DNA from: Chloroflexota bacterium
GTDB lineage: Bacteria; Chloroflexota; Dehalococcoidia; Lucifugimonadales; Lucifugimonadaceae
NCBI GenBank assembly: GCA_022564545.1
Contig: JADFLG010000004.1
Span: 1 to 52,841 of the forward strand
Length of the DNA stretch: 52,841 nt
Direction: 5' to 3'
The translations under genes and the position numbers were made by a program. Under the pieces are notes generated by a model. It saw nothing but the letters and a program-made list of their open reading frames with translations. It was not told where the DNA came from and made no database searches. Of the stretch, positions 36,399-41,613 are shown one piece after another. Position 1 is the stretch's first letter. Each line of letters starts with the position of its first letter.

Positions 36399-37121
36399 CT
36401 AAACGTACAGGCCCAGCTGGCCGCCGCCGAGCAGGAACAGGCTGGCCGGGTTGAGGCCAGGCGGGTCATCGGCAGTGCGGGCAGGGTCGAAGCTCGACAG
36501 CAGCCGAAAGCCCTCTGCCGAATATCGCCCGCCAATTCGCTGTGCGGCCTGTGAGCCACGCAGTATCCGTTCAGAGCCCCAGAACTCGCGTTGTGTCACC
36601 GGAGATTCCGAAGATGAGGGCAAAGGTGAAATCTCGACTGCAAATGGCGCCTCGTCCACGTCGTACTCACCGACTACGAGATCGCCGGCGCCAGGGTCGT
36701 CGATGGCGGAATCAATTGAACCGGGCGCCCGCGAGTTCTGTGATTTCTGACGGGCTTCCCTGATCTGGCGCGATGTGCCCGATACGACATGCATATGTGC
36801 ATGGGCCTGGCTCTGGTGTGCGACACGCCCGAAGTTGGAGATCACCCGGTAGCCATCGCCGCCGCAGTGTTGATCGCCCATCCTGACGGCCAGTGACGCA
36901 GCATCGACGAGCACCTGCGAAGACCAGAACTCCGTCTGGGTCATGTGCTGAGTTGGGACGATCAGCAGCATCACGCGCGCCCACTTCAGTTGATTGTGAA
37001 AGCAAGCGACTGTTGCACCTGGCGCACTGGCATCTGGACGTACTTCAAAGCGCGCATTGGTGTCTCCCGCAACGATCGCGCAAAAAACACAGTCACCAGA
37101 CTCAGACAACTCAAAGGTCAC
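36399..37121 (-). CDS. HIT-family protein with a second, degenerate HIT-like repeat
   Basis: This 240-residue protein has a complete HIT domain first: zinc-type CVFC (C11, C14) and the histidine triad H107-A-H109-M-H111-VV. The second half repeats it: TQTEFWSSQ (61-69) pairs with TQREFWGSE (176-184), and GGDGYRVISNFG pairs with SAEGFRLLSSFD. The triad segment is replaced by LNPASLFLL, so the second domain should be inactive. Start GTG 37121 overlaps the stop of the AAA+ gene (GTGA). HIT proteins hydrolyse nucleotide phosphoramidates or similar; a role beside replication genes is inferred only. Confidence 0.8.
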   Translation of the reverse strand: MTFELSESGDCVFCAIVAGDTNARFEVRPDASAPGATVACFHNQLKWARVMLLIVPTQHMTQTEFWSSQVLVDAASLAVRMGDQHCGGDGYRVISNFGRVAHQSQAHAHMHVVSGTSRQIREARQKSQNSRAPGSIDSAIDDPGAGDLVVGEYDVDEAPFAVEISPLPSSSESPVTQREFWGSERILRGSQAAQRIGGRYSAEGFRLLSSFDPARTADDPPGLNPASLFLLGGGQLGLYV

Positions 37122-38560
37122 CTGCGCGATGACTTCCCGCGGGACGCCCTGGGCCTGGGGGTCGCCCCCCGGTGCCGGAAGTCGGGCGCCGACAGGTAGC
37201 GTTCTGCGACGACATTGGCGTCACTGAGCCTCGACACGATCGCCTCTGAATACCGGGTCGTAATCCGAGCCTCCGAATCACCGATAGTCTCAAGCGCAGT
37301 GCGGCTGGTGAACACTGTCGGCATCATCGAATCGTGTCTGTGCACGATCAGTTGGTACAGTTTTTCTTCCGCCCACGCTGTCGAGACTTCGGCCCCGAGG
37401 TCGTCAAGCACGAGGACTTCCACATCGCGCACCAGGCCGAACGTGTGATCGAACGTCTTGCTCCCGGTCGGTCCATATGAGCGGCGGAGGTCGTCTAGCA
37501 GGTCCGGCACGAACCTGAACAGGACCTCACGACCCTGCTCGATGCACTCGCCCACGACGGCTGCGGCGAGGTGTGTTTTGCCAACACCCGTCGGGCCCGC
37601 AAGGTAGAGCCAGCCAGAAGGGTGCTCGGCGAAGACCTTCGCCGCGTCGTAGGCCTCGGCGAGAGACCGTTTTTGCGCTGCCGTCGCGCCTGCCGCACCT
37701 CGTTTTGTGAAACTGTCGAAAGTCATCGTCTCGGCGAGGCGGAGTCCCAGGCCTGAATCACGCCCGTCTGGCGTTCCGCTGCCGGCCTTGATGTGCACGA
37801 CCGTCGAGAAATAAGGATCGCCGAGCCTCGTGCGGAGCCGGTCGCCCAGTTCTGCAAATGGAATACCGGTTGTGACCATGGTTGGGAGTCGCCGGTTGTA
37901 GCGGTGTGTGAGAATTTGATCCAGTTTTTCATCAGCCCACGGGGTAGGCGATTGTGCTCCCAGGTCGTCGAGGATCAGGATTGGCGCTTCGATGGCCTGC
38001 AGGAAAATCTGGTCATACCGCGCACCAACAGCCGGGTCGAAGGCCGATCGCAAATGATCGAGCAGGTCGGGCACAGACACGAACCGGACCGGTTGGCCGG
38101 CCTCGACCAGTGCGTTGCCGACTCCGGCCGCAAGGTGTGTTTTCCCGGTGCCTGACGGGCCCGACAGCACCAGCCAGCCCTGCCGGTCGGTCACAAATCG
38201 TTGGGCCGCGTGGTATGCCTCCCTGAAGCTCGACGGGTCCGAGTAGGTGTCGCGAGTCCCCAGCTCGATCGTGTCGAACGTCAGTCGCTCGAGCGGTCCC
38301 AGGTCCGAATACTGCCTGATCCGGTCGGATGAGGTGACGCCCCAGACTCGCTCCTGGCACTGACATGGGACGACCGTCCGGGCCGATGCCGGCGAATTCT
38401 CGTCAGGCGCCACAACGAACCACCGCTTGTCGTCGCAGATGTCGCAGTGGACCTCGGCGTTAATGAGATCCTCTGGCTCGCTGTCGCTTGAGGTACTCCT
38501 CGTAGAACTCGTCTGACCGATCCTCTTGAAGATCTCGTCGAGCGGTTCCATCCCCTTCAT
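37118..38560 (-). CDS. Tandem double-AAA+ helicase-loader-like protein (DnaC/DnaI/IstB type)
   Basis: This 480-residue protein has an N-terminal zinc-type CDIC...CQC (C39, C42, C66, C68) like DnaI-type loaders. Two full ATPase modules follow: Walker A GPSGTGKTH (134-142) with Walker B ILILDDLG (194-201), and GPTGVGKTH (322-330) with VLVLDDLGAE (382-391). Both modules begin with a (L/M)TFD segment and share VPDLLDxLR, WAxEKL and HR. Usual loaders have one. ATG 38560 has AGGAG 7 nt upstream and lies 101 nt inside the DnaD-like gene, in another frame. It probably loads DnaB, whose gene is just upstream. Confidence 0.85.
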   Translation of the reverse strand: MKGMEPLDEIFKRIGQTSSTRSTSSDSEPEDLINAEVHCDICDDKRWFVVAPDENSPASARTVVPCQCQERVWGVTSSDRIRQYSDLGPLERLTFDTIELGTRDTYSDPSSFREAYHAAQRFVTDRQGWLVLSGPSGTGKTHLAAGVGNALVEAGQPVRFVSVPDLLDHLRSAFDPAVGARYDQIFLQAIEAPILILDDLGAQSPTPWADEKLDQILTHRYNRRLPTMVTTGIPFAELGDRLRTRLGDPYFSTVVHIKAGSGTPDGRDSGLGLRLAETMTFDSFTKRGAAGATAAQKRSLAEAYDAAKVFAEHPSGWLYLAGPTGVGKTHLAAAVVGECIEQGREVLFRFVPDLLDDLRRSYGPTGSKTFDHTFGLVRDVEVLVLDDLGAEVSTAWAEEKLYQLIVHRHDSMMPTVFTSRTALETIGDSEARITTRYSEAIVSRLSDANVVAERYLSAPDFRHRGATPRPRASRGKSSRR

Positions 38561-39230
38561 TTTCCAGCTCCTCGGGTCTGCCTTCGATCGCCCATCGGCG
38601 AAGGATTGCGGCAATGTAATTCCAGCTCCGTACGTTCGCTCCGGCTGCCGTGCGAATTGCCAGCAGGACCTCGTCCTCAGGGTGTTCTTCCAGCGCGGTG
38701 CGAATATTTTCGGCCACCACCGGCGTAACCGGCGCGATGTTTTGTTCGTAGGACGTTATGGCGCTCAACTTTGGGAGGGCAGCGTCTGTGTCAGGCCATG
38801 TTTCAAGCCGACTGCCAGATTTGCCGGGCTTGCTTGCCGCAGGGTCGATGCCCTGCCGCACAAGTGCACGTCTGACAGGCTCGGTATTCAGATAGATACG
38901 TTCGCCTGCCGAACTGGCGCCCGAACTCCCCGGGTTGTCCGGGGCCACTCGAATCAGTAAGACCCCACGTTCTGAAGCGGCTTCGAGCGCTGCGTCGACT
39001 ACGGCTTCAAGTTTGTCTCCTGATGCACCTAACATGGATGCCACCGTGCGGTCGGAATAGAGTTCATCGCGTGCGATCGAAGAAGGCACTTTTCGCTGCC
39101 GGTGCAGGGCGTGGATGACACGCAAGACCACCTTCAGTTCGTCAAGGGAGTCGATCTCTTCGAGCAGCGATGCCAGGAGCGGGTCTGGTACCGGCGTGAA
39201 CTGGACCCCGCGTGGGAATCCGCCGCTCAC
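38460..39230 (-). CDS. DnaD-domain replication protein
   Basis: This 256-residue protein has an N-terminal winged-helix-like region (LASLLEEIDSLDELKVVLRVIHALHR; SIARDEL) and a C-terminal DnaB_2/DnaD domain, YEQNIAPVTPVVAENI...NVRSWNYIAAILRRW, of the YxxxIxxx...W type. GTG 39230 is chosen because it overlaps the dnaB stop (GTGA) and gives a sensible N-terminus; the open frame to 39434 runs over dnaB and looks non-coding. DnaD/DnaB(Bs)-type proteins remodel origin DNA and recruit helicase with a loader, matching its place between dnaB and the AAA+ gene. Confidence 0.8.
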   Translation of the reverse strand: MSGGFPRGVQFTPVPDPLLASLLEEIDSLDELKVVLRVIHALHRQRKVPSSIARDELYSDRTVASMLGASGDKLEAVVDAALEAASERGVLLIRVAPDNPGSSGASSAGERIYLNTEPVRRALVRQGIDPAASKPGKSGSRLETWPDTDAALPKLSAITSYEQNIAPVTPVVAENIRTALEEHPEDEVLLAIRTAAGANVRSWNYIAAILRRWAIEGRPEELENEGDGTARRDLQEDRSDEFYEEYLKRQRARGSH

Positions 39231-40657
39231 CGCGCTACTCCGGGTCCGACAGCGCCAGCGGTACCGGCTGCGTAACTCGGTGCTGATTGGGCCCGGTACG
39301 GCAACTCCTCGAAAATTCCGATCGAGTCCTGGACCTTCATGTCGACTTCGTCCGTGGGGCCGTTTCTGTGTTTCGCAATTATCAGGGTGGCTCGGTCCCG
39401 CGGGAACGGTCTGCCCTGGCTGGTCTTTTCCCACTCTTCCTGAGACGTGAACTTTTCCTCCCGGTGGATGAACATCACGATATCGGCGTCCTGCTCGATC
39501 GATCCCGATTCACGCAGGTCGGAAAGCATCGGGCGGTGCGAGGCGCGGTGCTCGATGGCACGGCTGAGCTGCGATATCGCCAGGACAGGGATCTGCAAAT
39601 CCCGGGCCATCCCCTTCATGTGCCGGGAGATTTCTGAAACCTCCTGGGCACGGTTTCCTTCGCGGCTGCCGGTTCCGCCGTCGATAAGCTGCATGTAGTC
39701 GACCACCAGGAAATCCAGGCCGTGCGTCATTTGCAGACGGCGCGCCTTGCCGCGCATTTCTGCGACGGTCTGAAACGGCGTATCGTCTATAAATATCTGC
39801 AGGTCGGAAAGAAATCCGATCGAGTCGATCACCTTGTCTTCTTCGCTCGACGATTGCAGGATGCGGTTCCTGATCTTTTGCATGTTCACGCCGGACTGAG
39901 TGGCGAGCAGCCTCATGGCTATCTGCTCGCTCCCCATCTCTAACGAAAAAATTCCAACTTTGTTCTTGGCCTTCGCCGCGTGGAGAGTGAAATTCAGCCC
40001 CAGCATCGACTTGCCGACCGACGGGCGGGCTGCCAGAACGATCATGTCCGACCGTTGGAGGCCCCCCACCAGTAGTTTGTCGAGACGCTCAAAACCGGTG
40101 ACAATCGGCGATGTACCTTGCTGGCCGTCGATCTGATCAAGCGGTGACGATTCCTGAAGATACGGGAGGAGCGATTCGGACAACGGCGCAAAATCTCTTG
40201 TTTGCGATCCCTGCCGGATGCTGAACAGCGCGTCTTCGGCGGCGGACAGCGCGTCATCGACGTCGGGGTCGTCCCTGTAGCCGATGTCGGCGATGTCGGC
40301 TGCTGCGGCGATAAGCCTGCGCATCGTGGCGGTACGGCGCACAAGGTTGGCATAGTGCCTGATGTGGACCGAGGTCGGGGTGACCGATACCAGGTGCGAC
40401 AGGTACGCCGGACCCCCCACATCCTCAAGGACCCCGCGGTTCTCCAGTTCATGGGTGATGGTGACCTGGTTAATCGCCTCGTTTCGCTGGAACAGATCGT
40501 TGCAGGCCTCGAAGCAATGACGATTGATCTCGCGATAGAAATCATCAGCCGAAAGATAGCCTGCGATCTGGGTGATCGTCGTGCCATCAATCAGGATGGA
40601 ACCGAGTACGGATTCCTCGGCGTTCAGGTCGTGTGGGGGGAGTCGGTCGGCTTGCAT
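39227..40657 (-). CDS. dnaB: Replicative DNA helicase DnaB
   Basis: This 476-residue hexameric helicase acts at the replication fork. An N-terminal domain (LPPHDLNAEESVLGSILID...) leads to the RecA-like C-terminal domain with Walker A AARPSVGKSMLGL, Walker B FLVVDYMQLIDG, and motifs AISQLSRAIEHR and LRESGSIEQDADIV. There is no intein. ATG 40657 lies about 80 bp from two DnaA boxes. Upstream rplI is separated by a terminator, so dnaB heads its own operon with the DnaD-like, AAA+ and HIT genes. Confidence 0.97.
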   Translation of the reverse strand: MQADRLPPHDLNAEESVLGSILIDGTTITQIAGYLSADDFYREINRHCFEACNDLFQRNEAINQVTITHELENRGVLEDVGGPAYLSHLVSVTPTSVHIRHYANLVRRTATMRRLIAAAADIADIGYRDDPDVDDALSAAEDALFSIRQGSQTRDFAPLSESLLPYLQESSPLDQIDGQQGTSPIVTGFERLDKLLVGGLQRSDMIVLAARPSVGKSMLGLNFTLHAAKAKNKVGIFSLEMGSEQIAMRLLATQSGVNMQKIRNRILQSSSEEDKVIDSIGFLSDLQIFIDDTPFQTVAEMRGKARRLQMTHGLDFLVVDYMQLIDGGTGSREGNRAQEVSEISRHMKGMARDLQIPVLAISQLSRAIEHRASHRPMLSDLRESGSIEQDADIVMFIHREEKFTSQEEWEKTSQGRPFPRDRATLIIAKHRNGPTDEVDMKVQDSIGIFEELPYRAQSAPSYAAGTAGAVGPGVAR

Positions 40658-40728
40658 TGGGTGACGCGCAATATACAGGCCCGGCGGCGCGGATTAGAAG
40701 CGCGAACGGCAGGATATTTCAGACGAAG

Positions 40729-40747
40729 TTATCCACAAATATCCACA
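40729..40747 (+). promoter_or_regulatory. Two phased DnaA boxes upstream of dnaB
   Basis: TTATCCACA (40729-40737) is the perfect consensus 9-mer. ATATCCACA (40739-40747) matches 8/9 in the same orientation exactly 10 bp on, about one helical turn. They lie in the 142-bp gap between the rplI terminator and dnaB. DnaA control of the helicase operon, or part of an origin, are the two readings. Confidence 0.6.
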
Positions 40748-40798
40748 TTTCCCCCCAACTCAGTTCAAGTTGGAAAGTTGCTGAAAATTCCAGCCGTG

Positions 40799-40836
40799 AA
40801 AAACATCCGCCGGGACTGTAGCGCTCCGGGCGGATG
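40799..40836 (-). terminator. Intrinsic terminator between rplI and dnaB
   Basis: On the minus strand, CATCCGCC (complement of 40836-40829) pairs with GGCGGATG (40811-40804), with further GGA/TCC pairing inside, and TTTTT follows at 40803-40799. It ends the rplI transcript 28 nt after the stop codon. Confidence 0.75.
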
Positions 40837-40863: not shown

Positions 40864-41613
40864 TTATTCGGATTTTTCTTCCGATGCTTCTTCTGACTCT
40901 TTGGCATCTTCAGACTCGGATCGAGAATTGCTTTCATCTGCAGTTTCATCAGATTCACTCTCGTCCGCCGCTTCACCGGACTCAGACTCGGATTCGGATT
41001 CGTCGTCAGATTCTTCGGACTCCTCAGACTCTCCGGAAGCCTCGGCGTCGATCCTGGCCTCGGCCGCGGCCAGGACATCTTCAAACGAGGGGTCGAGAAT
41101 ATTTTTGTCTTCTTCAACGATCAGGTCAGAAACTTCTTCCAGCTGCTTGTTCAACTCGACCGAAGCGTCGTCGGCTACGACTTCCACTACCAGCGTGGCT
41201 GAAACGCCCTCGACCAGCCTGGCGGGTATCTTGTAGTCGCCGACCGCACGGATCGGGGCAGGGATTTGAATTCCCTTGCGGTCGATTTCCCGTCCCGTCA
41301 TTCTGGCAAGCTCGGCGGCGATCATCGTGTTGGTTACGGACCCGTACAGCCGGCCCGTCGGACCGGTGCGGACCTCAATTCGTACCTTCTCATCTTGAAG
41401 GGCGTCGGCGACGTCCTGCCATTCCCTGGCTTCCTGGAGTCGGCGGTCATCAGCTTGCTGGCGCAAGCCGGCAGCGCGTCGCAACTCGTGTTCGGTTGCC
41501 TGAACCGCAAAACCCTGCGGGATCAGGTAGTTTCGTGCGAAGCCATTCTTGACTTCCTTCACGTCGCCGGCGCGCGCCCTGGGACGTACGTCCTGCAGAA
41601 ATAGAACTTTCAC
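40864..41613 (-). CDS. rplI: 50S ribosomal protein L9 with long acidic C-terminal tail
   Basis: Residues 1-150 are a normal L9: N-domain MKVLFLQDVRPRARAGDVKE with GFARNYLIPQGFAV, connecting helix, and C-domain GRLYGSVTNTMIAAELA...RAVGDYKIPARLVEGV. The protein is 249 residues, against about 150 usually. The extra part ends in a tail (about 190-249) made almost only of Glu, Ser, Asp and Ala. It lies in the usual place upstream of dnaB, but rpsF, ssb and rpsR are not beside it. Confidence 0.93.
   Translation of the reverse strand: MKVLFLQDVRPRARAGDVKEVKNGFARNYLIPQGFAVQATEHELRRAAGLRQQADDRRLQEAREWQDVADALQDEKVRIEVRTGPTGRLYGSVTNTMIAAELARMTGREIDRKGIQIPAPIRAVGDYKIPARLVEGVSATLVVEVVADDASVELNKQLEEVSDLIVEEDKNILDPSFEDVLAAAEARIDAEASGESEESEESDDESESESESGEAADESESDETADESNSRSESEDAKESEEASEEKSE

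Follow-up and report, generated by a model that had tools for sequence, protein, structure and literature searches.

The rplI–dnaB gap and the helicase operon

The window, meaning the whole 52,841-nucleotide stretch analysed here, is contig C80 of a 195-contig, 2.9-Mb Dehalococcoidia (Chloroflexota) MAG from a genus of uncultured bacteria, and a DnaB search returned two public MAGs (labelled Dehalococcoidia and Chloroflexi) that match its DnaB at 81% identity. The genes rplI and dnaB follow one another on the minus strand, with 206 nt from the rplI stop to the dnaB start, and it is within this gap that the DnaA boxes lie. The features of the locus, in the direction of transcription, are as follows.

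40864–41613, minus strand: rplI, ribosomal protein L9, with a long acidic C-terminal tail
About 40799–40836, minus strand: GC-rich hairpin plus T-run, probable intrinsic terminator of rplI (−22 kcal/mol, z −2.4)
40762–40768, minus strand: TTGAACT, 11 bp (one turn) upstream of box 1, conserved in relatives
40749–40757, minus strand: DnaA box 1, degenerate, TGGGGGGAA on the dnaB strand, assigned from an alignment of 13 leaders
40739–40747, minus strand: DnaA box 2, TGTGGATAT on the dnaB strand (ATATCCACA on the plus strand), one mismatch, GTGGA core conserved
40729–40737, minus strand: DnaA box 3, promoter-proximal, TGTGGATAA on the dnaB strand (TTATCCACA on the plus strand), exact consensus, position kept in relatives
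40694–40699, minus strand: TTCTAA, inferred weak −35-like hexamer, 18 nt before the −10
40670–40675, minus strand: TATATT, −10-like, invariant in 13 aligned leaders
39227–40657, minus strand: dnaB, replicative helicase, first gene of the operon
38460–39434, minus strand: DnaD-domain protein (PF07261), given as the longest open frame; the true start is probably further in, near the dnaB stop
37118–38614, minus strand: DnaC/DnaI-like helicase-loader candidate with two AAA+ modules

Read on the coding strand the site is TGTGGATAT-T-TGTGGATAA, so that boxes 2 and 3 share an orientation, start 10 bp apart and are separated by 1 nt, exactly as an earlier sequence-only reading of this DNA had placed them. 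That reading also put an intrinsic rplI terminator ahead of the boxes, which is plausible given the folding energy of the GC-rich hairpin and its T-run, although a simple consensus terminator scan did not list the hairpin at 40799–40836. A consensus scan of the leader returned no sigma-70 promoter, TTCTAA included. The acidic tail of the rplI product (40864–41100) is rich in Glu, Ser and Asp and extends beyond the L9 domain, and the length of the product among congeners ranges from 206 to 320 aa.

The operon runs from dnaB through the DnaD-domain gene to the double-AAA+ gene, which is related to DnaC, DnaI and IstB; with a helicase, a DnaD-domain protein and a DnaC/DnaI-like loader all encoded, its earlier description as a helicase-loading operon is apt. 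Each of the tandem AAA+ modules in the loader-like gene matches DnaC/DnaI/IstB models, and most of the genomes sampled from the order encode a near full-length relative of the protein. In G076, two adjacent matches (residues 22–251 and 255–497) lie in separate frames. A domesticated dnaC/I gene has been reported in Chloroflexi (PMC5109545), in an account whose passage on that gene makes no mention of a tandem-AAA+ form.

A three-position box array in the dnaB leaders of the genus

A single box in the window would be uninformative, since about 0.4 exact boxes are expected from base count alone, and the lone TTATCCACA is not rare across the genome either (10 exact matches against 6 for the reversed control). 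The tandem pair at 40729–40747 is another matter: it did not occur in any of 200 simulated windows, a genome-wide scan found it only once in the 2.9 Mb, and 15 of 19 genomes of the genus have boxes at this location. We therefore reject a chance origin of the pair, and consider chance similarity of the boxes extremely improbable.

We compared the gap across 19 genomes of the genus (our own and 18 congeners), pairing leaders through dnaB because a DNA similarity search with the leader alone reached just 6 of the 19, our own included. As the sequence-only reading had proposed could be checked in relatives, boxes are conserved upstream of dnaB, and in all 15 genomes that carry them the layout between rplI and dnaB is TTGAACT-N4-box1-N2-box2-N1-box3. 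Thirteen of these genomes hold all three box positions, while G009 and G011 each lack exactly one 10-bp unit and so carry two boxes. The earlier statement that the gap contains no further boxes thus has to be revised: the third position, 40749–40757, is degenerate in the window, yet most congeners have TGTGGATAA or a single-mismatch variant of it as box 1. Across the 13 aligned leaders the 46-nt box block has a mean pairwise identity of 74%, compared with 45% and 35% for the two neighbouring 46-nt segments upstream and 38% for the one before the −10. In a genome-wide scan with a two-adjacent-box pattern, 14 of the 19 genomes had a match in the dnaB leader; 15 of the 17 matches in the genus fell there and 2 elsewhere, and the reversed control pattern gave 8 matches across the same genomes. 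On this comparison, the window most likely has a DnaA-binding array of three positions with a 10–11-bp period, of which boxes 2 and 3 are the best preserved.

Spacing within the leader is conserved in part. TATATT was found in all 15 array-bearing leaders, 60–62 nt from the start of box 3, or 70–72 nt, one helical turn more, in G009, G013 and G014. TTGAACT and TATATT stand 92–94 nt apart in most leaders; the distance falls to 84 in G011, which has lost ten bases, and rises to 102 and 104 in the two leaders whose spacers carry insertions. From TATATT to the dnaB start, by contrast, it varies from 17 to 79 nt. In our genome, a start site 6–8 nt past TATATT would give a dnaB message with almost no leader. 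Such spacing is suggestive of helical phasing between boxes and promoter; we hold it as suggestive only, because the number of indels behind it is only three or four, the repeat is by its nature prone to slip by ten bases, and the interval between the rplI stop and TTGAACT likewise varies little in length (91–96 nt in most).

TTGAACT is not accounted for by DnaA, and it is as conserved as the boxes. As the −35 of a second promoter it was ruled out by eye, with no suitable −10 at 16–18 nt. Its conservation, and its retention at the same distance to the −10 in the boxless leader of G017 (L013), are what one would expect if some other DNA-binding protein with GTGGA half-sites, perhaps also using TTGAACT, controlled dnaB and the likeness to DnaA boxes were incidental; box 2, often preserved merely as GTGGA in the 13-leader alignment, points the same way. 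Against this, boxes 1 and 3 fit the DnaA consensus without mismatch in several species, and all 19 genomes encode a DnaA that keeps the canonical box-reading motif DHSTV. We regard control by such a protein as an outside prospect, at odds of roughly one against nine.

Four of the 19 species (G002, G003, G016 and G017) have no boxes in their dnaB leaders, so dnaB can be expressed in the genus without the array. Three of them, G002, G003 and G016, form a well-supported clade in the DnaB tree, and their leaders (L018, L027 and L015, respectively) contain an inverted repeat with 7–10-bp arms and the general form GAATTTCC-n-GGAAATTC at about the position that the DnaA boxes occupy in other species. 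This repeat is possibly the site of a replacement regulator. Beyond the genus, inspection by eye found the array absent from 11 leaders of other genera in the same family, with a stray single TTCTCCACA in G025 only, and a computed search of 20 further upstream stretches (4 from the same family, 16 from other families) found no box at up to one mismatch. In several of these same-family genera dnaB starts almost directly after the rplI stop, and the terminator, the separate promoter and the array of the genus thus appear together.

Position of the array relative to the probable origin

Several near-consensus DnaA boxes within an intergenic gap could also mark a whole or partial replication origin next to the helicase gene, which the sequence-only reading had offered as its second option. 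Since our own genome, in 195 contigs, is too fragmented for skew analysis, we sampled GC skew in 20 stretches of the single-contig congener G013. Positive skew prevails in G013 between 0 and about 1.4 Mb, negative skew between 1.5 and 3.0 Mb; the switches fall at dnaA, which lies at the start, and near 1.45 Mb. The dnaB gene, at 1.774 Mb, is closer to the terminus and the skew keeps its sign on either side of it, so the array in this relative does not coincide with a skew switch. The AT-rich interval with box-like sequences is found instead between dnaA and obg, whereas the dnaB site is short and, by eye, shows no AT-rich stretch alongside its boxes. Skew and the dnaA–obg interval together contradict the origin-fragment option and make the dnaB leader a very unlikely origin, to which we would give only a few chances in a hundred.

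We place the probable oriC of the genus in the dnaA–obg interval (L064:2140-2460 in G013:C1), whose last box overlaps the obg start codon (TTATCCACATG and variants). Many congeners have two box-like sequences there at a distance of 66 bp, the second of which runs up to the obg start. In this interval the window's own genome has TTTTCCACA and others the exact TTATCCACA, which indicates that the boxes of the origin belong to the same family. A clear oriC elsewhere with a different box consensus had been named as evidence against the earlier proposal; a probable oriC does exist elsewhere, but with boxes of the family seen in the dnaB leader. A similar recurrent sequence, the box-like TCCACATAT, precedes dnaA, as autoregulation of dnaA would lead one to expect. 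A literature search on oriC in Dehalococcoidia, judged by title and abstract, found nothing relevant.

Clustered boxes distant from the origin might alternatively serve mainly to titrate DnaA in the manner of datA, buffering free DnaA without directly affecting dnaB. Two or three boxes would make a small sink, however, and the array always stands immediately upstream of dnaB, at fixed distances from the −10 element; we think titration improbable, with a likelihood just short of one in ten.

DnaA as a candidate regulator of helicase supply

We favour, with a probability of roughly three in four, the reading in which DnaA binds the array and regulates the dnaB–DnaD-domain–AAA+ loader operon as a transcription factor. 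Boxes of the TTATCCACA family lie by the putative promoter, are conserved in 15 of 19 genomes and occur alongside a DnaA with DHSTV in 19 of 19. The proposal of direct DnaA control over a helicase-loading operon is well supported by this genus-wide conservation, by the place of the boxes upstream of a conserved −10-like element and by the content of the operon. We infer DnaA binding, use of the promoter and the sign of regulation from such sequence features. DnaA would bind the array just upstream of the dnaB promoter, cooperatively and on one face of the DNA; bound DnaA would set transcription of the dnaB, DnaD-domain and AAA+ loader genes, and helicase-loading capacity would track the level of DnaA, probably DnaA-ATP. 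An activating role is somewhat favoured over repression or dual control. The array would sit at about −66 to −95 relative to the presumed transcription start, and this position, together with the weak −35, favours activation over simple occlusion.

More tentatively, the array and TTGAACT may form a genus-specific composite switch, with DnaA as a face-of-helix activator, that arose when a terminator and an own promoter set dnaB apart from the ribosomal operon, and that was replaced in one clade by the inverted-repeat site of another regulator; we consider this extended scenario unlikely as a whole, though worth keeping in view.

DnaA is an established transcription factor that activates or represses, for example at the E. 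coli nrdAB and dnaA promoters (PMC8203912). As at those promoters, DnaA boxes here lie near the promoter of a replication-linked gene, but the target is a helicase operon and the boxes are direct repeats at 10–11 bp upstream of the −35 region. The array shares its 9-mer family and multiple copies with oriC arrays, but differs from them in being short, with no evident AT-rich region alongside, and, in the relative, far from the skew switch. The closest likeness is to dnaB of Caulobacter crescentus, a member of the DnaA regulon with predicted DnaA boxes upstream (Hottes et al. 2005, as summarized in the review PMC8203912). Unlike that case, the Chloroflexota genus has, on sequence evidence, a phased three-position array with TTGAACT, and the array heads an operon in which dnaB is joined by genes for a DnaD-domain protein and an AAA+ loader. 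DnaA control of dnaB has thus already been reported in Caulobacter; the present case stands out by its phylum, its array and its natural variants.

DnaA may also control the dnaB–dnaI operon of B. subtilis, a case to which we give no weight here. If the proposed regulation holds, DnaA control of helicase supply would extend from Caulobacter to Chloroflexota, where replication control has hardly been studied. The natural variants, comprising 10-bp box losses, 10-bp spacer insertions and complete losses of the array, provide a ready set on DnaA–RNA polymerase communication.
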